Origin: a virus
Virus record (IMG/VR): IMGVR_UViG_3300020123_000351
Coordinates: 1-27,033 of that record
Length of the DNA stretch: 27,033 nucleotides
Reading direction: 5' to 3' (one strand)
Positions 6,304 to 26,878 of the stretch are shown piece by piece (the first letter of the stretch is position 1; the number at the start of each line of letters is the position of its first letter). Both the position numbers and the translations under genes were made by a program. Under the pieces are notes generated by a model, which saw nothing but the letters and a program-made list of their open reading frames with translations, was not told the origin of the DNA and made no database searches.

Positions 6304-6609
6304 ATGAATGCCATCCCGGTGGACCAATTCACTCCTCAGGTTGCCGCGGTGCCTCCTCCTCGCGTCCAGGCCGCTCAGCAGTTCCTGTTTTGGTTTCATC
6401 AGGGTCGGGCCATGCCGGTTATGGGATTTGACCAACGACCGGCCGATCCCCCTGACCCGACGGCAAAGGAGAAGGCCGCTTACGAGTCAGCATTGGACGT
6501 CATGCGACTCTACTTTTCGGGCGAGATGGACTATGGCGACTCGCCCCCGGCGTCTCACATTGGCGGTGATGATAATCCCGAGTCTCCAGCACCAGTTCCG
6601 GTGAGCTAA
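6304..6609 (+). CDS. Hypothetical protein (101 aa), portal-operon leader gene
   Basis: Starts at ATG 6304 with AGGAAA 8 bases upstream, and ends TAATG sharing one base with the portal start. Residues 1-45 (MNAIPVDQFTPQVAAVPPPR, QFLFWFHQGRAMPVMGFD) are proline-rich then aromatic. The middle has a helix (AKEKAAYESALDVMRLYFSG) and the C-terminus is acidic/proline-rich (GGDDNPESPAPVPVS). It may help head assembly because of its coupling to the portal. No family recognised. Confidence 0.6.
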   Translation: MNAIPVDQFTPQVAAVPPPRVQAAQQFLFWFHQGRAMPVMGFDQRPADPPDPTAKEKAAYESALDVMRLYFSGEMDYGDSPPASHIGGDDNPESPAPVPVS

Positions 6610-8807
6610 TGATTTCCGAACCATCGACCGTTTCGTTCATCGTTGATCAGCAGCTGCGTCAGGTGCAGAACGTCCAGGCCCTGCAACCGATCAACGGGCC
6701 TCAGATCGTCGGCGTGGACGGCTCGAAGACCCCGCCGCAGGTGAATACGATGGTCTCACCCCTCGATGGTGAGCTACCGAAACCATCAACCGTCGGCGAC
6801 GCGTTCTATCGCAAGGCCAGGGAGATTCGCCGCGACCCGACGATCCGCATGGTTCGTGAGTTGGCGATGGCACCGATCCTGATGGCCGAGTGGGAGTTCG
6901 AGGCTGCTGACGACGCTCCTGAGGGGGCAAAGGAACTTATCGAGTCGATCATGGGCGGCCTCAGGCTCCCGCTGCTGCGGTCATCGCTCTGCGGCATGTG
7001 CGACTTCGGATGGCAACCGTTCGAGATCATCGCCGAGCAGCGTCAGGATGGCGTGAGTGCTCCCCGGCTGAAACCGCTGCTGCAGGACATCACCAACATT
7101 CTCGTCAACGCAGCAGACGGTTCATTCTTCGGCCTGCGTCAGACGCCGACGGTCGGCCAGCGCATCGGTTGGATTTACTTACTCGATCAGGAATGCTTCG
7201 TCGTCAGTCAGGACGTCGAGGGAACAAACTGGTACGGCGAGCCGACGCTGCGGTCCGTCGAGAAGACGTACGATGAGGCCGAGGTCGTCAACAAGTCGTC
7301 GCGAAAGTACGACGCGAAGGTCGCCGGAACGCACTGGGTGATCTATTACCCGCTCGGGACCTCGACGTACGAGGGAGTTGATCGAGACAATGGCTGGATC
7401 GCTAAGGACCTTCTAGCCCGGGCCGAGGCAGTCAACGGCATCGCGGTGCCGCGGTCAGTCGTTGACTCACTCGACTCGATGAACGCCGCGATGGCGAACT
7501 CCGAGGCGTCACAGTGGAAGATCGAATTGCTCAGCGACAGCGGCAAAGGTCAGCAGCCGTTTACCGATCGGCAGAAGTATCTCGACGTGCTGAAGGTGCG
7601 GGCGTTCGGTTTCCCTGAGCGAGCGATCCTAGAAGGTCAGTTTGGAACGAAGGCCGAGGCCGAGACTCACGCCGACATGGCGGTCAGCAACGTCGAGGTC
7701 CGTCACGCCCTGCTCTGCCTGCAGTACAACCAGAAGGTCGTCGACCTCATCCTCACTTGGAACTATGGCCCTGACGCCCGTGGCAAGGTGTGGGTCAAGC
7801 CGTCACCGCTCGCCGATGACACCAAGGGATTTTTCCGGCAGGTCTATCTCGCGTTGATCGCCAACCCGCAAGGGTTCATGACCGAAGTCTCGGCACTCGA
7901 CCTCCACCAGATGCGTGAGCGGTTGGGAATGCCCGAGGTTCCGATGATGGAGGCCGGCTACGCTGACCCTTGGGGTGCCGGCATGGTCGACCCGGTGACC
8001 GGTCAGCTGCTCATGACGCCAGATCCCGCGGCTCCGGCCGACCCGATGGCGGTGCCGCAGTTGACGTACGCGATGGCGTTCGACCCGAACGAGCCTCGCG
8101 ACGATCAGGGACGCTGGACGGACGGAGCCGCTCACGATGCGTCTAAGGTCAACATCGATCATTGGGGTAAAATACTCGAAAAGGATGCGAAGCGAGGTAA
8201 GGATCGGCTGAGGTCATTCCTGGCATCGCTCGCGACGGCAAGAGACTTCGGAGAGAAGATTGAAGATTTCCATGAACGCAGAGGACTGACTCATTTCGTT
8301 AGATGGGCCAGGGAAGTTTTGGGAATCAAGCCGACGACATTATCGATGATCGACGACATCGACTCGGCCGCCTCACGAGCCCGCAAGCCGACCGACGCTC
8401 AGCGTGAGGCCGGCAACTACCGCAAAGGGCACGTCACGATTCACGGCCTCGACGTTACCATTGAGACGCCGCGTGGCAAGAAGCGGAAAAAGAAGTGGCC
8501 GAAGCTGCCCGCTCATTACGGCTACTTCAAAGGCACCGAGGGAGCCGACGGTGATCACGTCGACGTGTTCATCGGTCCTCAGCCTCAAGTCGAGGTCGCG
8601 TTCGTCGCCAACATGAAGAACGGCAGCGGTGAGTTCGACGAGCATAAGGTGCTACTCGGGTTCAAGTCACGTAAGAAGGCCGTCGCCTGCCTCCGTGAGG
8701 CGTACGGTGGTGCCGATCACCGCATTGGTAAGGTGCATGCGTTCACGATCCCGGGCCTGAAGCGATGGCTCGCCGGCAACACCGACGTCGCCCTCAGCCA
8801 AAGATAG
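6609..8807 (+). CDS. Portal protein (DUF935/Mu gp29-like) fused to InPase-like domain
   Basis: Residues about 30-460 match DUF935-type portals: AFYRKAREIRRDPTIRMVRE, CDFGWQPFEI, YDAKVAGTHWVIYYPLGT, NGWIAKDLLARAEAVNG, FGFPERAILEGQFGTKAEAE. Portals form the dodecameric ring at the capsid vertex and bind the terminase. After a linker with AMAFDPNEPRDDQGRWT (about 487-503) and a helical stretch, residues about 600-720 form a second domain: YRKGHVTIHGLDVTIE, LPAHYGYFKGTEGADGDHVD, VFIGP, DEHKVLLGF. This is the inorganic-pyrophosphatase-like module seen in phage polyvalent proteins. At 732 residues the protein is far longer than ordinary gp29 homologues (about 500). The C-terminus, DVALSQR, resembles motifs repeated in the protease/scaffold protein. 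Confidence 0.85.
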   Translation: MISEPSTVSFIVDQQLRQVQNVQALQPINGPQIVGVDGSKTPPQVNTMVSPLDGELPKPSTVGDAFYRKAREIRRDPTIRMVRELAMAPILMAEWEFEAADDAPEGAKELIESIMGGLRLPLLRSSLCGMCDFGWQPFEIIAEQRQDGVSAPRLKPLLQDITNILVNAADGSFFGLRQTPTVGQRIGWIYLLDQECFVVSQDVEGTNWYGEPTLRSVEKTYDEAEVVNKSSRKYDAKVAGTHWVIYYPLGTSTYEGVDRDNGWIAKDLLARAEAVNGIAVPRSVVDSLDSMNAAMANSEASQWKIELLSDSGKGQQPFTDRQKYLDVLKVRAFGFPERAILEGQFGTKAEAETHADMAVSNVEVRHALLCLQYNQKVVDLILTWNYGPDARGKVWVKPSPLADDTKGFFRQVYLALIANPQGFMTEVSALDLHQMRERLGMPEVPMMEAGYADPWGAGMVDPVTGQLLMTPDPAAPADPMAVPQLTYAMAFDPNEPRDDQGRWTDGAAHDASKVNIDHWGKILEKDAKRGKDRLRSFLASLATARDFGEKIEDFHERRGLTHFVRWAREVLGIKPTTLSMIDDIDSAASRARKPTDAQREAGNYRKGHVTIHGLDVTIETPRGKKRKKKWPKLPAHYGYFKGTEGADGDHVDVFIGPQPQVEVAFVANMKNGSGEFDEHKVLLGFKSRKKAVACLREAYGGADHRIGKVHAFTIPGLKRWLAGNTDVALSQR

Positions 8808-9132: not shown

Positions 9133-9639
9133 ATGGACTACTGCGCAGACACCGACATCTTCCTCGCCTTTGGTGAGTCGAACGTTCGCAAATGGGCCGA
9201 CGTCAACAATAACGGCCTCAAATCCGAAATCGACAAACGCATCGCATGGTCGATCAGCAACGCCACCGCTCACCTAAACTCCAAGCTCCATAAGAGTCGC
9301 TATCAATTCCCGCTGTCTGACGATAGCGACATCCCGGCCGACCTCACTCTGATCGCGTCCTTCAAAGCCGGCGTGCTGTTGTACGAGTCTCGCGGCATCA
9401 CTGACATGGGGCCTGACGGAAAGGCGGTGCACTCGCTCAGCTGGCACCGTGATCAGGTCGAGGAGTTTATTCGCGACATTCACTCTCGGCGCCGATTCCT
9501 CATTGGCGTGACGCTGAAAGACGGTGCAGTTGCCGATATTAGCGAAGCACCTGCGATGGTGTGTTTTCCCGACCCGTCGAAAGCTGACAGCGTGACGAAG
9601 CTCGAAGACAACATGATTGACATCGCTCCCAGGCAGTAA
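9133..9639 (+). CDS. DUF1320/Mu gp36-like head-tail connector protein
   Basis: Strong SD AAGGAG 9 bases before ATG 9133. The opening YCADTDIFLAFGESNVRKWA, then NNNGLKSEIDKRIAWSISNA and LHKSRYQFPLSDD with 'IPADLTLIASFKAGVLLYES' matches the DUF1320 pattern: 'YCT-DL-xxFGE', a D/N-rich turn, a helix pair, and a 'Y-LPL' segment with a long helix. Mu gp36-type proteins are adaptor/connector proteins of the head-tail joint. In Mu-like phages this gene lies after the capsid gene; here it lies before the head morphogenesis gene. Confidence 0.75.
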   Translation: MDYCADTDIFLAFGESNVRKWADVNNNGLKSEIDKRIAWSISNATAHLNSKLHKSRYQFPLSDDSDIPADLTLIASFKAGVLLYESRGITDMGPDGKAVHSLSWHRDQVEEFIRDIHSRRRFLIGVTLKDGAVADISEAPAMVCFPDPSKADSVTKLEDNMIDIAPRQ

Positions 9640-10264: not shown

Positions 10265-10693
10265 ATGAACCAGACCACGATACCTCCGACCGCGTTGTTG
10301 CTGAGTGCCGCGATGGGATGGATGTTCTACATTCGCGGACGTCACGCAGTCGGAAACGCGATGCTTGCCATGAGCATCATGGGACTGTGGTCACTTGCGG
10401 TTTTTAATCAGGCCGCTCCCCACTCTCGCGTAATTGCTCCGACGTACCGATCACCGTCGAGAATCTACGCTTCAGAGTTGAAGATCGACGGTCAGTCGGT
10501 GATCGTTTCGACGCTCGATCGATCGAAGCGAGTGTATCATGAGCCCGACTGCTCGTACGTCAGGCTGATGAAGGTCAACGCCCAGGCCGAGAACCACATG
10601 AGGACGTTTCGGTCGAAAGCCGATGCCGAGGCCGCTGGCTTCTCGCCGTGCAGTCGGTGCGTTAAGCGACCAGCGATAGCAGCCACAAACTGA
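10265..10693 (+). CDS. Membrane protein with Ada-like metal-binding C-terminus (142 aa)
   Basis: The N-terminal half has two hydrophobic segments (PTALLLSAAMGWMFYI and NAMLAMSIMGLWSLAVF). The C-terminal part (residues about 88-135) carries VYHEPDCSYV, then FRSKADAEAAGFSPCSRCVK. This is the short zinc-binding module first known from Ada and common at the ends of nucleases and secreted proteins ('H-x3-C ... F-S-x-A-x-AGF-PC-x2-C'). The metal site thus sits on a membrane-anchored protein. A target cannot be named. The 3' end overlaps the small antisense gene at 10662-10826. Confidence 0.6.
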   Translation: MNQTTIPPTALLLSAAMGWMFYIRGRHAVGNAMLAMSIMGLWSLAVFNQAAPHSRVIAPTYRSPSRIYASELKIDGQSVIVSTLDRSKRVYHEPDCSYVRLMKVNAQAENHMRTFRSKADAEAAGFSPCSRCVKRPAIAATN

Positions 10694-17847: not shown

Positions 17848-18390
17848 ATGCCCAAACTGAACCTTACGGTGACCGTGAACCTTCACGGTCTCCGTCGTTT
17901 TAAGGACGACCTCTCGACGAGCGACCTCCGCCGCTCGGCCTCACGCCCTATTCGCGAGGCACTTGACCAATGGGCGATCATCCTGGCACGCTTCCTGACA
18001 GCCCGCTGGAGCCTGTTTTCTGCTGGCGGTGGTAACTGGAAGCATCTCAGCGAGAAATATCTCGCCTGGAAGCGGCGGAAGGGCCTCCTGCCGCTAATCC
18101 TGAGGGCAACCGACCTGATGTTTCAGGCGTTCTCGATCACCTTCGGCCGCAAGCCCGGGAGGATCGCTGAGGACATTCCGTTTGGCGTTCGAGTCGGGTT
18201 TGGCCCGGGCATGCAATACCCGCACACCAGTAACCCGAGCGTGACAATTGCCCAGCTGGCGATGTGGCACCAAACCGGAGAAGGCCGCTTGCCGGCCCGT
18301 AAGATCATCGTCGGTCCCGACACCGAAACGAGAGCTCAGATGAGGGCGACGATGCAGGAAGCGATGCTGGAGGTCGCCCGCGGTGAATGA
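17848..18390 (+). CDS. Tail completion/virion morphogenesis protein, Mu gpG-like
   Basis: The 180 residues carry WKHLSEKYLAWKRRKGLLPL, followed by ILRATDLMFQAFS, then YPHTSNPSVTIAQLAMWHQT and GEGRLPARKIIV. This is the pattern of phage virion morphogenesis/tail completion proteins ('W--LS--Y---K', 'IL--TG-L--S', 'A--H--G---LPAR'). They sit at the head-tail interface. A second ATG lies 6 bases upstream in another frame. The 3' end overlaps the next gene by 8 bases. Confidence 0.7.
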   Translation: MPKLNLTVTVNLHGLRRFKDDLSTSDLRRSASRPIREALDQWAIILARFLTARWSLFSAGGGNWKHLSEKYLAWKRRKGLLPLILRATDLMFQAFSITFGRKPGRIAEDIPFGVRVGFGPGMQYPHTSNPSVTIAQLAMWHQTGEGRLPARKIIVGPDTETRAQMRATMQEAMLEVARGE

Positions 18391-18916
18391 AAACCCTTTC
18401 AACATGGTTCTGCAAGCGCTCTGGGCGATGCTCCTCGCTCACCCGGCGTTCGTGCGCGACGTAAAGGAGAATAACCGAATCCGGTTTGACGATCCATCGA
18501 ATCGAGACCCGCTGAAGGATGCTGTTCAGGCAGGAGACCTTCCTGAGGTTGCGATTGGGACGACCGCGGCGACCGCGAACATCATGGAGACGTCAAGCAC
18601 ATCGATGTGCAAGCGGACTTATACGATCATGGTTTCTAGTGGGGACCTCCGCTATACAGAAATCCTTGGCCGCGTCGAATGGTACATCTGGTGTGCCATG
18701 GCCGGATGGAAGAAATCTGTGGCGTCTCTGCAGTGGAGAAAGAAAACGTTCGTCAAGGTCGTCAACGTAGCGTCAGTCGCTTCAGGCCTGAGCGACGCCG
18801 AGAGAAACCGAAATATCAAAGGCTGGTCGGCCGTCTGGTCGATCACCGTTGAAATGCACTTCGACACCGCTGACCTGCTGACAGAGTTGGCAGGTGACCA
18901 AGAGAAGGACAGCTAA
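18383..18916 (+). CDS. Putative tail terminator protein (177 aa)
   Basis: GTG start at 18383 with GGAGG 8 bases upstream, overlapping the previous stop by 8 bases (GTGAATGA). The sequence begins with a helix (MNENPFNMVLQALWAMLLAH), then NRIRFDDPSNRDPLKDAV, LPEVAIGTTAATAN, KRTYTIMVSSGDLRY, and RNIKGWSAVWSITVEMHFDT. One helix plus a beta sheet, encoded between tail completion and tail tube genes, fits a tail terminator, but no sequence family was recognised. Function is by position. Confidence 0.5.
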   Translation: MNENPFNMVLQALWAMLLAHPAFVRDVKENNRIRFDDPSNRDPLKDAVQAGDLPEVAIGTTAATANIMETSSTSMCKRTYTIMVSSGDLRYTEILGRVEWYIWCAMAGWKKSVASLQWRKKTFVKVVNVASVASGLSDAERNRNIKGWSAVWSITVEMHFDTADLLTELAGDQEKDS

Positions 18917-18917
18917 T

Positions 18918-19778
18918 ATGACCGTGCATGGTGGAAAACGCGGCCGAGTCAACGGCGTCAATACGATGCGGCGTTGGTCAGTCAGTGAGACCGAGCGGTT
19001 GGCGAAGGCCGTCGCGTCAAACACACTCCTTGGCACTCAGCGCCAGAGAGGAGCGAGGGCATGGACTGGAAGTTACGACTCCTACGGGGAGCAGCCGATC
19101 GCCGGCGCAATGCCCGGTGAGACATTCTCCTTCTCCGCATACGGTGCACCATCGGACGACATCTCCGGAAACGGACTGCTATACGAGGGTGACTGCGTCG
19201 TTCGCCAGATCCAGCAGAAATGGGACTGGAAAGGCGGTGCAATCCTCCAGCACACCGTAAACTTCGATGGGCACCTTGAACTCGACAAGGTGAGTGGCGC
19301 CGACCCGGGCGACACCGTCGCACCCAATTGCCCGATGGTTGGCGGGACGAAGATCACCTGGGCGGCTAATGGGGGAACGCCGGAGACTGAGCTACCGAAC
19401 CTCGCTCAGGCGACTCTCACGATCAGCAGTGCAGTCTCTGATTATGTCAACAGCAGCACATACATCGGAGGCACTCTGTGGACCGGCCGCAAGTCAGGAC
19501 CGATTGACTGGTCGCTTTCGATCACCCAGGAAGACGACGAGCGGCTGACTGGGATCTTCGACATTGGCGACGTCGTGAACCTGCGACTATTCACCGACTC
19601 CAGCCTCTATTGGGAGTTGACCACCGGCCGCGTTGCAGGGTTTAACAACATCAGGGTCGATAGGGAAAGCGGCGAGATCATTGGCCGCACGATCGAAATC
19701 GAGATGAACGCCTACTATGGTTCGTCCGCTGGTCACATTAAATTGCCCGGCGGTACAACGTGGTGGCCGTTCCCCTAA
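18918..19778 (+). CDS. Putative tail tube protein (286 aa)
   Basis: The start is ATG 18918 (GAAGGA 9 bases upstream), just after the previous stop. The protein opens MTVHGGKRGRVNGVNTMRRW and is beta-rich throughout, with TGSYDSYGEQPIAGAMPGET, a glycine-rich middle and GRVAGFNNIRVDRESGEIIG near the end. Order (terminator, tube, chaperone, tape measure) and all-beta character support a major tail protein. Sequence similarity to a named family was not recognised, so confidence is moderate. Confidence 0.6.
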   Translation: MTVHGGKRGRVNGVNTMRRWSVSETERLAKAVASNTLLGTQRQRGARAWTGSYDSYGEQPIAGAMPGETFSFSAYGAPSDDISGNGLLYEGDCVVRQIQQKWDWKGGAILQHTVNFDGHLELDKVSGADPGDTVAPNCPMVGGTKITWAANGGTPETELPNLAQATLTISSAVSDYVNSSTYIGGTLWTGRKSGPIDWSLSITQEDDERLTGIFDIGDVVNLRLFTDSSLYWELTTGRVAGFNNIRVDRESGEIIGRTIEIEMNAYYGSSAGHIKLPGGTTWWPFP

Positions 19779-19786
19779 GTGATTAA

Positions 19787-20215
19787 ATGAGCCAAAGAAT
19801 TATCCCCTGCGACGAGACAATCACTCTCGCAGGGCGTACCCTGACAATCGGTGCCCTGAGCGATCGGCAGCACGTCGAGCTTGACAGATGGGTCGGCTCC
19901 CAAATGATCAGGGCCGCCGCTCGGTCGCTTCCTGAGGATGACCCGTTGTGGGACCGCGTTGTGGCGGTGGCTACCGCTGAGGCGATCAACGCCGATTGGC
20001 AAGGCAACCATGCCTCCCGCGGCGATGAAGGCTACGCTCATATCATTTTCGTCAGCGTGAAGGACAAGGCAGTAACCGAGGCAGAGGTTTCCGCTCTGCT
20101 TCGCGAGGCCACAAGGGCCGAAAAAAAGCTGCTCAACGACGCCTTTATGCGGCTCAACTATCCGATAAAGCGGGAGGTCGCTGAGGGCGACTCAAACCCT
20201 CATGCACCCGCGTAG
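19787..20215 (+). CDS. Tail assembly chaperone, short (G-like) form
   Basis: The 142 residues, starting at ATG 19787, are mostly helical: SQRIIPCDETITLAGRTLTI, LSDRQHVELDRWVGSQMIRA, EAEVSALLREATRAEKKLLN. It lies between the tail tube and the tape measure, the usual place for the lambda G-type chaperone. The last codons contain a -1 frameshift signal (20194-20221), so a minority of ribosomes should make a 204-residue G-T fusion. The ratio of short to long form usually matters for tail assembly in such phages. The chaperone call itself rests on position and the frameshift. Confidence 0.75.
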   Translation: MSQRIIPCDETITLAGRTLTIGALSDRQHVELDRWVGSQMIRAAARSLPEDDPLWDRVVAVATAEAINADWQGNHASRGDEGYAHIIFVSVKDKAVTEAEVSALLREATRAEKKLLNDAFMRLNYPIKREVAEGDSNPHAPA

Positions 20216-20221
20216 CGCGGG
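20194..20221 (+). promoter_or_regulatory. Programmed -1 ribosomal frameshift signal
   Basis: The heptamer A-AAC-CCT (20194-20200) is an X-XXY-YYZ slippery site in the correct zero frame. After a 6-base spacer, CCCGCG (20207-20212) and CGCGGG (20216-20221) form a perfect 6-bp stem whose loop is exactly the zero-frame stop codon TAG (20213-20215). The -1 frame is open from 20185 to 20400. Confidence 0.8.
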
Positions 20222-20400
20222 AAGAGGTTTATGCCCGAGTAATGCGTCTATGGCCGTCCTACAAGCTTGATGATATAGCCAACCTAACGCCTGAGTCGAT
20301 AATCTGGCATCTCGAAAACGGATGTGAGCCTGACCCGGACGTCATTACCTTTCAGACGATGGAGCAAGTCGAGCGATGGCGGGCGAAAACGATGTCGTAA
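20200..20400 (+). CDS. Tail assembly chaperone, T-like extension in the -1 frame
   Basis: After slippage the reading continues SCTRVAREEVYARVMRLWPS, YKLDDIANLTPESIIWHLEN, GCEPDPDVITFQTMEQVERW, RAKTMS: 66 residues added to 138 zero-frame residues (204 in all). The frame overlaps the tape measure start by 25 bases. The only internal start (ATG 20242) has no suitably spaced SD, so fusion by frameshift is preferred over an independent gene. By analogy with lambda T, this part would contact the tail tube subunit. Confidence 0.75.
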   Translation, partial: SCTRVAREEVYARVMRLWPSYKLDDIANLTPESIIWHLENGCEPDPDVITFQTMEQVERWRAKTMS

Positions 20401-21446
20401 TCGACGCGAAAGTTAAGACCGAAGACGCTAAGTCAGGCGTTCAGGACCTCTTCGACCAAATTGAGGACATGAAGGGGAAGCTTGAGGATCTCGGTGATTC
20501 CGCTGGAGTTGATACACTCGAGGAAAAATTCAACCGCCTGAGCGGTACGTTCGAGAATCTGGGTTTGAGCGTCGGCACATGGGATCAGATGCTACAGAAA
20601 GCATCTCAGGTTGCCGCGGCGGAACTCGACGACATTTTCAACGCGGTCGATAAAACGATCGACGCTCACGACAAGGCGACCGAGGCTGTCAGGAGGTACT
20701 TTGACGAGATCGAAAAGGGCGGAAAAAAAGGATCAAAAAAGGACCGCCTTGGCGGGGGTGGCGAGGAGGATGCATTCAAGGAACTCGGCGAAGAGCAGTT
20801 GGGGTTCTCGGCCCGAGGAACGGTCTCCGGTCGCCTGGAACGATTAGGCCGAGGTATTTCCGACTTCTTCAGTGGCGATGACTACACCGCTGACGCTGAC
20901 AGGGAGGGGCGCAAGGCCGGCGATCGTCAGCGTCAGATTGACAAGAACAACGAAAAGGAACAGGAGCGTCGCGAGTTCGAGGCCTCGGCCGCCGATCACA
21001 ACAACCGCGAACGCCAGCGGGAGCGAGAAAAATACTTCCAGGAAGAATCGCGTATCGACGAGAAGGAGGCGAAGGATCGCGAGGCCGCGGCGGTGAAGGC
21101 CGGCAGACAGCAACTTGAGCTGAATGATCGCCTCGGAAAGGCTGAGCAGCATAAGGCTGACGCTCAGGAGCGGTTCGACCGGCAGGAATCGTTGAGGGCG
21201 ATCAGCCGCGAGAAATATGCTCAGGAAAAACACTTCGGCGGCGGGACGGTCGGGTTCGAGTCGATCTATAGTCAGTTTGCCGGCGCCGCGAACGCTGGCA
21301 AGGACGACCCAGCCGAAAAGGCTCGCCAGCAGCGAGAGGAAATCGCCAAACGTCAAGACGAGCTTCGCCGTCAATGGCATGAAGAGGACCTCGCAAAACA
21401 GGACAAGGTCATCGAAGAGATGAAGAGGGGACTCGGGTTGGCATGA
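20376..21446 (+). CDS. Tape measure-like protein (356 aa, short)
   Basis: Located right after the chaperone pair and rich in charged coiled coil: SGVQDLFDQIEDMKGKLEDL, FNRLSGTFENLG, then from about 185 nearly continuous R/E/K/Q-rich helix (EKEQERREFEASAADHNNRE, REREKYFQEESRIDEKEAKD, QREEIAKRQDELRRQWHEED). A glycine/lysine stretch lies at about 115-130. No transmembrane helix or lysozyme domain was seen. It is much shorter than usual tape measures, which would set a tail of roughly 50 nm if the normal 1.5 angstrom-per-residue ruler applies. It overlaps the chaperone extension and the next gene (ATGA). Confidence 0.65.
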   Translation: MAGENDVVIDAKVKTEDAKSGVQDLFDQIEDMKGKLEDLGDSAGVDTLEEKFNRLSGTFENLGLSVGTWDQMLQKASQVAAAELDDIFNAVDKTIDAHDKATEAVRRYFDEIEKGGKKGSKKDRLGGGGEEDAFKELGEEQLGFSARGTVSGRLERLGRGISDFFSGDDYTADADREGRKAGDRQRQIDKNNEKEQERREFEASAADHNNRERQREREKYFQEESRIDEKEAKDREAAAVKAGRQQLELNDRLGKAEQHKADAQERFDRQESLRAISREKYAQEKHFGGGTVGFESIYSQFAGAANAGKDDPAEKARQQREEIAKRQDELRRQWHEEDLAKQDKVIEEMKRGLGLA

Positions 21447-23010: not shown

Positions 23011-25022
23011 TGACCGCAGCCGGAATGAGAATGATGGGGCCAAACTGCACCTGCAGTGGCTGCGAAGTGTTTGCCGACAACTTCAACCGCCCCGATGAAG
23101 ACATTAATCCAAACGACTCTACCGGAAATTGGAAAGACGAGATCCCGCCCGTCCTGCTAAACAACAGGCTGCACATCCGAGGCAATCGGTTGCTGGCCGA
23201 GTTCGTTGGAGCTAGCGACTTCCCGATCGCAACTTACGAGCATGCACCACCATCGCATTTTTCGATCTCCATCGATGTGGAGCTTTACTCAGGAGGCGCT
23301 TGCGAACTGCGGGTAGTCACGGACGCGTTGAAGACCTACGGGATCACGCTCTATCAATCGGCCGGCGATCCTCCCGCCGCGTGCGGACAAATCGTTCTGG
23401 TGGGCAACGTGACCGGAGCCCAATTCTCATTTGTGCCGAACGTCGCGGTGGAAGTTGCGCACCGCCTGACTCTGTGCTACGACCCCGACACAAAGATTCT
23501 CAGCGGCAACGTCGTTCTACACGGGGAGGCCGTGCCTCATTCGACGCATCTCTTTGAGGTGACGATGGACGGTACTCCCGAGAAAATTCAAATCTTTCCG
23601 ACGCTTGCGACTGGAGGAACTTTCGGGGATCAATACTACGACAACTTCGCGGTCATCGAGACGAAGGTCCAGGATGAATACTACGGGTCGTATTATTACT
23701 ATTACTACGGTAACCACTGCCCATGCGGCGGGCCTCGTGGTTGCCAAAGCGTCTCTCCGGTTCTGAGCATTGAAGGGTTGGACTGCCGATTTCATGTCAG
23801 CGGCGACTCGACTCCCGGTGATGGATTTTTGACACTCGCCGCCGGCACCGCGGCACAATGGTGGGAGTCATGGTCCGGGATTGATAATCACTGTCGGCCT
23901 GATCACACAACCTATCTCGCGTCGAGCGTGCGTATCAAAGGCTACGGCGAGTCGGTCGCAATCGACGTCGCATGGCTCAACTCGACCCATAAGCTACAAG
24001 CAAAATTGACGGCCGAGAGCAGCGACGGGGCAAACGACGGCACGCTTAAAATCTACGATTCCGGTGGAGCGGAATTGGGTAGTGTAGTTCTGGCTGGTGC
24101 CATTAAAGATACCTGGGTGCAGGTCAAAGTCTGCTACGACGGTTTCAACTTGAGTGCCTCGGCTCTGGGAGAATTTGTAGAGGCCGAGGCTCCGGACACC
24201 AGAGGTCAATTCGTCGGATGGGAAAACTTGGGAACCAGTGACGCTGACGTGAGCGGGATCACGATCAGTCACAACATCTATTCCCCGAACTGCCCGGGAT
24301 GCGACGAGAACATTACCTCAGGGTGCGACATCTGCGAGGATGAGATCGTTCCGGCAAGAATCGCGGCGATGATTGAAGGTGTGTTGCCTGGGCACGAGAC
24401 TCATTGCTCTGGCGCGACACCGACCGGAAGTTTGGGTGCCGATATTAACTGTGATTTTTGCGAGCGAGCGAACGGCACTTGGATTCTTCCTTACGGAGGG
24501 GGCAGCATCCACGGTGCCGTACCCGGTGCATGCGGATCGCCACTGGCCGGATTCGATGCTATTGAAAATTTTGATAACGTATCGTCATGTTCATGGTCTC
24601 AAGTGTTTGGCCCTAGCGTGGCGTGCGGACTGACCGACGGAAGTGATGAACCAAATGTCATCTGCCGGGGAGTTGTTAGCAATGATTCCGGGGGCCTCGG
24701 ATTCGCGTGCTTCACCGCAATCGGAGTTACCCTCTACCACAACAGCGAGAACAATAGATGGGTAGTTGAGGGAGTGTTGCAATCGCCGGGAAATAATGGA
24801 GATCCCGGACTTGACCCGGGCAGCTTGGTTCAGACATGGATTTACTGGTCAACGGAACTCCCAGAGGGAGCGGACCCGATTAACTGCCCGGGCGTTCTCG
24901 ACGGCCTGGAGCTAAAATTTGCCGGCCAATGTAAAAAGTGCGGCCTGTCACCGCCTGGAACATTAACCCCGGACGCGCTCTGCGACGGATCTGGATCAAC
25001 GATGAGGCTGGCAGTCGCGTGA
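23010..25022 (+). CDS. Cysteine-rich tail adhesin-like protein (670 aa)
   Basis: The start is ATG 23010, coupled to the preceding stop; an in-frame TTG at 22998 is less likely. The N-terminus has GPNCTCSGCEVFADNFNRPD, a short cysteine cluster before the first of two similar beta-sandwich (LamG/concanavalin-like) regions, about 20-215 and 245-425. Their counterpart strands include HRLTLCYDPDTKILSG and TWVQVKVCYDGFNLS. Between them is a tyrosine-rich stretch (YYGSYYYYYYGNHCPCGG), after them a second Cys cluster (NCPGCDENITSGCDICEDE), and a Cys-rich C-terminal third ends with GQCKKCGLSPPG. It probably binds the host surface or forms the tail fibre. The 3' end overlaps the next gene as GTGA. Confidence 0.6.
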   Translation: MTAAGMRMMGPNCTCSGCEVFADNFNRPDEDINPNDSTGNWKDEIPPVLLNNRLHIRGNRLLAEFVGASDFPIATYEHAPPSHFSISIDVELYSGGACELRVVTDALKTYGITLYQSAGDPPAACGQIVLVGNVTGAQFSFVPNVAVEVAHRLTLCYDPDTKILSGNVVLHGEAVPHSTHLFEVTMDGTPEKIQIFPTLATGGTFGDQYYDNFAVIETKVQDEYYGSYYYYYYGNHCPCGGPRGCQSVSPVLSIEGLDCRFHVSGDSTPGDGFLTLAAGTAAQWWESWSGIDNHCRPDHTTYLASSVRIKGYGESVAIDVAWLNSTHKLQAKLTAESSDGANDGTLKIYDSGGAELGSVVLAGAIKDTWVQVKVCYDGFNLSASALGEFVEAEAPDTRGQFVGWENLGTSDADVSGITISHNIYSPNCPGCDENITSGCDICEDEIVPARIAAMIEGVLPGHETHCSGATPTGSLGADINCDFCERANGTWILPYGGGSIHGAVPGACGSPLAGFDAIENFDNVSSCSWSQVFGPSVACGLTDGSDEPNVICRGVVSNDSGGLGFACFTAIGVTLYHNSENNRWVVEGVLQSPGNNGDPGLDPGSLVQTWIYWSTELPEGADPINCPGVLDGLELKFAGQCKKCGLSPPGTLTPDALCDGSGSTMRLAVA

Positions 25023-26878
25023 CTACAAAACGATTCAAATGCCCATCGTGCCGGGCTTCGTTTCTGGTGTCTGAAGTCTCAATGCCGCTGAGGTGCTGCA
25101 GCAACACATACCTGAGAATAGACGACGTGCCGGGTGTCGCCGTCGCGAGTGATATCGACTTGGTCGGGAGGAATGCGGCACTAACGCAGGAGCGTATTAA
25201 GCTGCCCCTGAAACTCGGGTGCGTTCATCAGAAAGAGGAGCGGCGAAGGGTTGTCTGCAAAACGTGTCGCGGTCAAACGGAACTAAAAATTCTCGGATGT
25301 TCGATTCACGGAGAGTGCTCAGTTGTGAAGCCTATTAATGTTGTCCAATGCTGCCAGTCGTGCAGTGAGTACCAGAAATATTATGAGCCTGAAACGAGAA
25401 ACCTGATCTATCACGTCGCAGCGATCGATGGCAACGCGGGATGGTGGTTCAATTGCCGCGAGATAACCAAGCGGATCAGTCGAGGCGTATTCAACGGTCG
25501 GAAGCTGATCGCTGTCGCGGCCGGCGAAGGTTTATTGAGGGTCGATGAGGTCAGGTCGCGTTTCGATTGGGGGGACGCTGAGTTCGTCGAAATCGCCAAT
25601 GACCGAGAGCTTCGCGAGGTCGCGACGTTCCCCGTACTGATTGGTCGGGCGTCCTGTTGGGAAGGTGCCACGTTCTACGCTCACACGAAAGGCAACAGCA
25701 CCGATGGCGACAAAGTCGGCGCCGTTCGCTGGCGGAACGAGATGTACCGTCAGCTGCTCGACGACATCCCGCGGGCGATGATTTGCCTCAGGACTCACGC
25801 GGCCGTCGGCACTCACAAGATGATCTGGCGAGACAAGCGTCCGCCGTATCCATCAGGTCTAAAACATGGCGGATGGATGTTCGCCGGGACGTTCTTCTGG
25901 TTTAGGAACGATGTGATCTACCAACGAAAATGGCAGGACGTACCTAGAGATCGATACGGTGCCGAGGCTTGGCTTAGCGGAATATTGCAATGGCATGAAG
26001 GGTGGAGCGTTTACCAGCCATGGCCTGAGCATCAGTATCCAACGCCGAGCCCGTACTCACGCGACCTGTACCCTAGCTACCTCGACGACAACCCACTGAA
26101 TGAGATCTCTGTGAGCGATTGGGAGGCACTCACACCGCCCGCTCGCCCTAGCATTCCGGCGATCTCGCCGGCAGACTGGAACGCCGTGTTTGCCCCTCGA
26201 TCACCGCGTCCGAAGATCAGCCCGACAACGGTCCTTCGGCCGCCAATCACGGAAGGTCCGGCAACCGTGGTTGTTATCGGGACTTACCGCGGAGGGACGT
26301 CATTCACGGCCCAGTTGCTGACCGAGGCCGGAGTGAGCATGGGCGACTCGTATTTCGATGAGAACAAGCCCAATGCCGTCTACCTAAGCTACGAGGACAC
26401 GGACTTTAACATCGCGATCGGCGATTTGGTTCGCGACCGTAAGGGTGGCGATTGGGATTGCGAGGAGTGGCAATTGGTCGAGGTTCTTTGCCGTGAGCGT
26501 GACGAACGACACACCGTCTGGGGATTCAAGGTACCGTCTGTTGTTTTCGTGATCGATCGATTGCTGAGCCTCGTCCGCAACCCGCACATTGTTTTGGTTA
26601 CCCGCGATTTAGTATCGACTTGGCAAAGCGAGGTGCATTACAAAGTAAATCCGTCGTGGAATAATGCCCGCACTCACTGCCTGAGCGTGATCGACCTAAT
26701 TGAAAAGCCGCGAGCACCGACGCTGCTGATCGGTTTCGAGAGGGCACAGAAGTATCGCGAGCACACAAAGGACGCGATTCGCCAGTTTTTGGCAATGGAC
26801 AAGCCTCACCGGAGCACAAATGATTCGCGACTTGATCTATCACGTTTGCGCGCTGAAGAAGAACGATCTGTGGATTGA
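25019..26878 (+). CDS. Glycosyltransferase-sulfotransferase fusion with Cys-rich N-terminus
   Basis: GTG 25019 overlaps the previous stop (GTGA); 619 residues. Residues 1-30 hold FKCPSCRAS and PLRCCS. Residues about 68-115 form a Cys-rich module with VVCKTCRGQTELKILGCSIH and CCQSCSEYQ. Residues about 126-320 resemble a glycosyltransferase-like domain: RNLIYHVAAIDGNAGWWFNC, FYAHTKGNSTDGDKVGAVRW, WMFAGTFFWFRND, DRYGAEAWLSG. A proline-rich linker leads to a P-loop sulfotransferase-like domain (about 414-598) with VVVIGTYRGGTSFTAQLLTE, the 5'-phosphosulfate loop, and HIVLVTRDLVSTW, the 3'-phosphate-binding strand/helix. It could attach a sugar and then sulfate to the same glycan. Both activities are inferred from motifs. 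Confidence 0.65.
   Translation: MTTKRFKCPSCRASFLVSEVSMPLRCCSNTYLRIDDVPGVAVASDIDLVGRNAALTQERIKLPLKLGCVHQKEERRRVVCKTCRGQTELKILGCSIHGECSVVKPINVVQCCQSCSEYQKYYEPETRNLIYHVAAIDGNAGWWFNCREITKRISRGVFNGRKLIAVAAGEGLLRVDEVRSRFDWGDAEFVEIANDRELREVATFPVLIGRASCWEGATFYAHTKGNSTDGDKVGAVRWRNEMYRQLLDDIPRAMICLRTHAAVGTHKMIWRDKRPPYPSGLKHGGWMFAGTFFWFRNDVIYQRKWQDVPRDRYGAEAWLSGILQWHEGWSVYQPWPEHQYPTPSPYSRDLYPSYLDDNPLNEISVSDWEALTPPARPSIPAISPADWNAVFAPRSPRPKISPTTVLRPPITEGPATVVVIGTYRGGTSFTAQLLTEAGVSMGDSYFDENKPNAVYLSYEDTDFNIAIGDLVRDRKGGDWDCEEWQLVEVLCRERDERHTVWGFKVPSVVFVIDRLLSLVRNPHIVLVTRDLVSTWQSEVHYKVNPSWNNARTHCLSVIDLIEKPRAPTLLIGFERAQKYREHTKDAIRQFLAMDKPHRSTNDSRLDLSRLRAEEERSVD

Follow-up and report, generated by a model that had tools for sequence, protein, structure and literature searches.

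The window analysed here is a 27,033-base IMG/VR virus record that carries phage late genes in the order terminase, portal, Mu-F-like protein, capsid E, neck and tail; its capsid E protein matches the Pfam family with an E-value of 3e-96. The portal-like protein (Portal_Mu; 6609-8807) has a C-terminal InPase domain at residues 596-721 (PF18823, E 5.5e-37), a small late-region protein at 10265-10693 matches an Ada-type metal-binding domain (PF02805, E 3.8e-5), and a large protein near the end of the window (24938-26878) shows a weak match to Sulfotransfer_3 (E 0.005, below the cut-off).

All features of the tail region described below lie on the plus strand. A gene at 18894-19778 probably encodes the major tail protein; this function is assigned from its position, which is conserved in relatives just 5' of the tail assembly chaperone (TAC) gene, and the protein has no match in Pfam, PHROG or annotated phages. 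The gpG-like TAC itself is encoded in the zero frame at 19787-20215 (142 aa) and is identified by homologues in four relatives and by fold matches. Overlapping its end, a -1 frame at 20185-20400 is homologous to the -1 frames of those relatives and encodes a T-like C-terminal domain that is putatively joined to the TAC by frameshifting. A probable tape measure protein gene follows at 20376-21446, with its start inside the end of the -1 frame.

Read directly, the last codons of the zero frame (19787-20215) are GAC TCA AAC CCT CAT GCA CCC GCG TAG. They contain a slip heptamer, A_AAC_CCT (20194-20200), which reads AAC CCT in the zero frame and AAA CCC in the -1 frame; it is followed by a 6-nt spacer, CATGCA (20201-20206), and by a 6-bp GC hairpin, CCCGCG-TAG-CGCGGG (20207-20221; stem arms 20207-20212 and 20216-20221), which is a probable stimulator. 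The 3-nt hairpin loop is the zero-frame stop codon TAG (20213-20215). The -1 frame opens after TGA 20182-20184 and closes at TAA 20398-20400, with 66 codons beyond the slip. An initial annotation of this DNA had proposed the heptamer, spacer, stem and TAG loop, together with the limits of the -1 frame and its 66 downstream codons, and direct reading confirmed each of these parts and its position.

Several other short motifs lie near this cassette. At 20122-20128, 72 nt 5' of the slip site, the zero frame reads A_AAA_AAG, which ranks as a strong -1 motif in E. coli; ribosomes shifting to -1 at that point would meet TGA 20182-20184 after about 20 residues. Downstream, a zero-frame mini-ORF (ATG CCC GAG TAA, 20231-20242) has a stop codon that overlaps the -1-frame ATG at 20242, forming TAATG. 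As candidates for an upstream SD-like stimulator, we considered GGGAGG at 20172 (16 nt from the heptamer) and GAGGG at 20183 (6 nt); L009, one of the relatives described below, lacks any such element, and we do not claim one.

Neither the TAC nor the T domain has a match in Pfam or in annotated phages, and neither has a meaningful match in PHROG. The AlphaFold model of the TAC (pLDDT 81) has no match in the PDB; among its 50 best BFVD matches, 13 are tail assembly chaperones by annotation, drawn from many phages, and the best of the 13 has an E-value of 0.025, which is weak for any single match. The model of the T domain is small and helical (pLDDT 76) and has no informative structural match.

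Relatives were identified by two routes. L002 was found via its capsid protein (77% identity) and L009 through capsid alignment (51% identity), and L087/L088 and L091/L092 were found with a profile of three tail-protein sequences. L087 and L088 are identical over the 2.4 kb compared, and L091 and L092 have one difference in 3.2 kb; we counted five independent lineages, namely the window, L002, L009, L087 and L091. In a profile search of 80 capsid relatives, the tail module was common to only L002 and L009, and the others were left out. Searches of phage and viral collections with single proteins (TAC, T domain, tail protein and the gene after the tape measure gene) found no further relatives, nor did two scans of genome contigs.

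The order major tail protein, TAC, -1 C-terminal domain and tape measure occurs in all five lineages, so that the TAC always sits between the tape measure gene and the gene taken, from its position, to encode the major tail protein. The window's major tail protein has 54% identity to that of L002, 52% to L087, 40% to L009 and 35% to L091. In 5/5 lineages the tape measure gene starts inside the end of the -1 frame, and the tape measure counterpart in L009 has a PHROG tape measure match (E 3e-12).

The T-like domain likewise lies in the -1 frame relative to the TAC in every lineage. Its protein identity is 38% between the window and L002, 41% between L002 and L087, 31% between L002 and L009, and 48% between L009 and L091. 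Third-position changes are in excess in the -1 frame, with 26, 24 and 37 changes at the three codon positions between the window and L002, and 23, 19 and 36 between L009 and L091. Judged by sequence comparison, both frames are under protein-level constraint.

The slip region itself is partly conserved. The heptamer A_AAC_CCT is identical in L087 (6289-6295), where it shares with the window the preceding, TGA-containing GTC GCT GAG, and L009 carries A_AAC_CCC (9215-9221). L002 has G_CGC_CCT, that is, the tetramer C_CCT only (10418-10421), directly 5' of a 7-bp GC hairpin. L091 has an A-run in place of A_AAC_CCY (AGT AAA AAA GGG G, 6330-6339) and keeps the -1 arrangement. In a codon alignment of the gene between the window and L087, nucleotide identity is 0.47 overall, and the best 8-codon windows, at 20162-20200, reach up to 0.83. 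The same codon is used at 7/7 shared residues from 20162 to 20198 versus 16/38 elsewhere (Fisher p 0.005), a comparison that involves few shared residues.

Downstream structure, a common though not essential part of TAC frameshift sites, varies among the lineages. The 7-bp GC stem of L002 (10427-10448) stands at the same distance from the slip as the stem in the window; structures in L009, L087 and L091 are weaker or different, and only these two hairpins are clear, with the stems of the relatives standing in sequence that is not alignable. RNAfold places the 6-bp hairpin of the window as the element of minimum free energy in 20201-20240 (-12.6 kcal/mol, z -1.25). For that region, 20 of 200 shuffles folded equally well, and the hairpin is not exceptional once longer windows are folded. 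The initial annotation had singled out the stop codon in the hairpin loop as an unusual detail; this feature is not conserved, as the zero-frame stops lie ~18, ~61 and ~115 nt past the slip in L087, L002 and L009, respectively. It had also suggested that the pausing ribosome sits over the slip site; by our reasoning, a ribosome stopped at the TAG has moved five codons beyond the slip and must have opened the stem by then.

Taken on sequence and synteny, -1 programmed ribosomal frameshifting at this locus very probably yields two tail assembly chaperones, a pair of the gpG/gpGT kind. The G/GT-type reading of the initial annotation gains support from the -1 arrangement in five lineages, the gene position, the heptamer in two relatives and the resemblance of the N-terminal model to viral TACs. 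Against the frameshift reading, AAACCCT is expected to be a weak motif, A_AAC_CCY is absent from L002 and L091, the hairpin is not clearly kept in L009, L087 and L091, no fold match to a named TAC is individually significant, and ATG 20242 in the -1 frame could in principle serve as the start of a free T domain. We infer that slipping occurs at low efficiency. Most ribosomes would read the 142-aa TAC and stop at the TAG ending at 20215. In a minority, the P-site tRNA-Asn (on AAC) and the A-site tRNA-Pro (on CCU) would move back by one base and re-pair with AAA-CCC, a slip that the hairpin, 6 nt further on, would help. Shifted ribosomes would then continue to the TAA ending at 20400, and their product would be a TAC extended by a T-like domain, small and helical, of ~66 residues. 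If lambda is a guide, coating of the tape measure protein may fall to the short form and recruitment of the tail-tube subunit to the long form.

A different way into the -1 frame would be termination-reinitiation at TAATG (20240-20244), or coupling from the TAG, either of which would yield a free T-like protein from ATG 20242; we regard this as improbable. That ATG does lie in the -1 frame, L002 has a TGATG stop/start overlap at the equivalent point, L087 has an ATG nearby, and a purine-rich GGGAAGAGG is present at 20219-20227; however, this element is poorly spaced for an SD (14 nt from 20242 and 3 nt from 20231). Start codons in the -1 frame are present in the window, L002 and L087, whereas in L009 and L091 the stretch of this frame from the slip region to the conserved domain contains neither ATG nor GTG nor TTG; their first start codons fall inside the domain (ATG 9335 in L009 and ATG 6449 in L091). 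In the protein alignment, the Met encoded at ATG 20242 corresponds to Leu in L087, and similarity reaches upstream of this Met to a Tyr common to 4/5 lineages (the window, L002, L009 and L091). Because two lineages lack a start, L087 has Leu and the upstream Tyr is shared, independent initiation is not the general route in this family. Reinitiation would also leave the conserved slip codons unexplained. L002 could use reinitiation at its TGATG as well. The initial annotation had proposed that homologues with a second frame that was fused, lost or self-started would count against frameshifting: none was fused or lost, no start codon stands ahead of the conserved domain in L009 or L091, and in L002 the TGATG may permit reinitiation.

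Two further explanations would remove recoding at the heptamer altogether. Metagenome contigs can carry indels, and the two frames might be parts of a single gene split by an indel from assembly or sequencing, or of a pseudogene in decay; no result points to an indel here, and both frames are constrained at the protein level. Moreover, the same -1 relation recurs in five diverged contigs whose zero-frame stops lie at differing distances, so an indel artefact is very unlikely. It is equally hard to credit that the heptamer is a chance motif beside two ordinary overlapping genes and that any slip occurs elsewhere, such as at A_AAA_AAG 20122. That motif is a much better one in E. coli (PMC4066793); however, a -1 shift there meets TGA 20182-20184, leaving the T frame out of reach, and this candidate was rejected. 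The 10-codon overlap contains no further motif from the E. coli hierarchy of slip-prone Z_ZZN sites (only GGGC and AAAC occur), and window/L087 conservation is highest around the heptamer. Across the window's listed genes, 28 in-frame X_XXZ_ZZN heptamers occur at 6,681 codon positions, and only one of the 28, A_AAC_CCT at 20194, has a perfect 6-bp stem 4-10 nt downstream. In a 10-codon overlap of random codons drawn with the window's codon usage, any X_XXZ_ZZN heptamer is expected at 4.1% and a heptamer plus stem at 0.06%; the combination is therefore unlikely to arise by chance.

Returning to the frameshift, the expected strength of the slip site can be compared with measurements in E. coli, where all Z_ZZN and X_XXZ_ZZN motifs were assayed by Sharma et al. 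2014 (PMC4066793). In that study, the C_CC.U and C_CC.C tetramers were shift-prone with a strong stimulator, CCN codons were less shifty than AAN or UUN, and all heptamers but three, A_AA.C_CC.A being among the exceptions, exceeded twice the background with the IS3 pseudoknot. The window's site resembles these motifs in belonging to the X_XXZ_ZZN class and in containing a tetramer of the C_CC.U/C_CC.C type, which shifts when followed by a strong stimulator; it differs in that the measurements come from E. coli reporter constructs rather than from the window's phage family, and C-type motifs were among the weaker ones. AAACCCT is expected to be weak, since it is heterogeneous in A and C and CCN is less shifty than AAN or UUN; by this analogy, AAACCCY should shift at a low level, aided by the all-pyrimidine CCY codon. 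Such low-level shifting would agree with lambda, in which the ratio between the two products is about 30:1 (PMC5009743). At X, Y and Z alike, the annotated phage frameshift heptamers reported by PRFect include each of the four bases (PMC10885494), so C at the Y position is uncommon but known. The initial annotation had called AAACCCT unusual: it is indeed rare, and the part of the literature searched held no tail chaperone with precisely this heptamer, but its class is not unprecedented (PMC4066793), with C at Y in TAC heptamers (PRFect, PMC10885494).

A more tentative proposal, possible but open to doubt, is that what this tail module conserves for shifting may be the C_CC.Y tetramer in the A site (tRNA-Pro re-pairing with CCC from CCU or CCC) and not the full heptamer. 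L002 would then slip with only the A-site tRNA re-paired, which would make it a natural tetramer-type tail-chaperone frameshift. A C_CCY tetramer occurs by chance at ~0.45% of codons, and its chance occurrence within the 51-codon overlap of L002 is therefore about 1 in 5.

The organisation of the locus closely follows that of lambda gpG/gpGT, in which the gene is flanked by those for the tail tube and the tape measure and gives a short TAC plus a -1 extended form; however, no sequence homology is detectable by Pfam or PHROG matches, and the lambda slip site is G_GGA_AAG, whereas the window has A_AAC_CCT and a downstream GC hairpin. Position, direction and product logic are also all shared with gp17.5/gp17.5* of SPP1 (PMC6316719), in which the slip sequence is UUUUUUC rather than the predicted C-type A-site slippage at A_AAC_CCY of the window family. 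The same three properties are shared with the wider set of long-tailed phages in which TAC frameshifts are attributed to Xu et al. 2004, as cited in PMC5009743. The principle of frameshifting has long been known; what seems to be new, as far as sequence comparison reaches, is its use in a tail module that is a sequence orphan and whose slip site is of the uncommon C type. The gpG/gpGT logic was recognisable by comparison alone in a module with no sequence relatives in Pfam, PHROG or annotated phages. The family also suggests a probable natural use of C-type slip sites (A_AAC_CCY / C_CCY), a class measured as weak. Slip motifs are replaced from lineage to lineage while the frame relation stays fixed in all five, so the family could be used for studying the replacement of frameshift sites.

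Elsewhere in the window, a second in-frame AAACCCT occurs at 18391-18397, just past the start of an ORF at 18383 and adjoining the end of the ORF at 17848-18390; there is no stem downstream of it.
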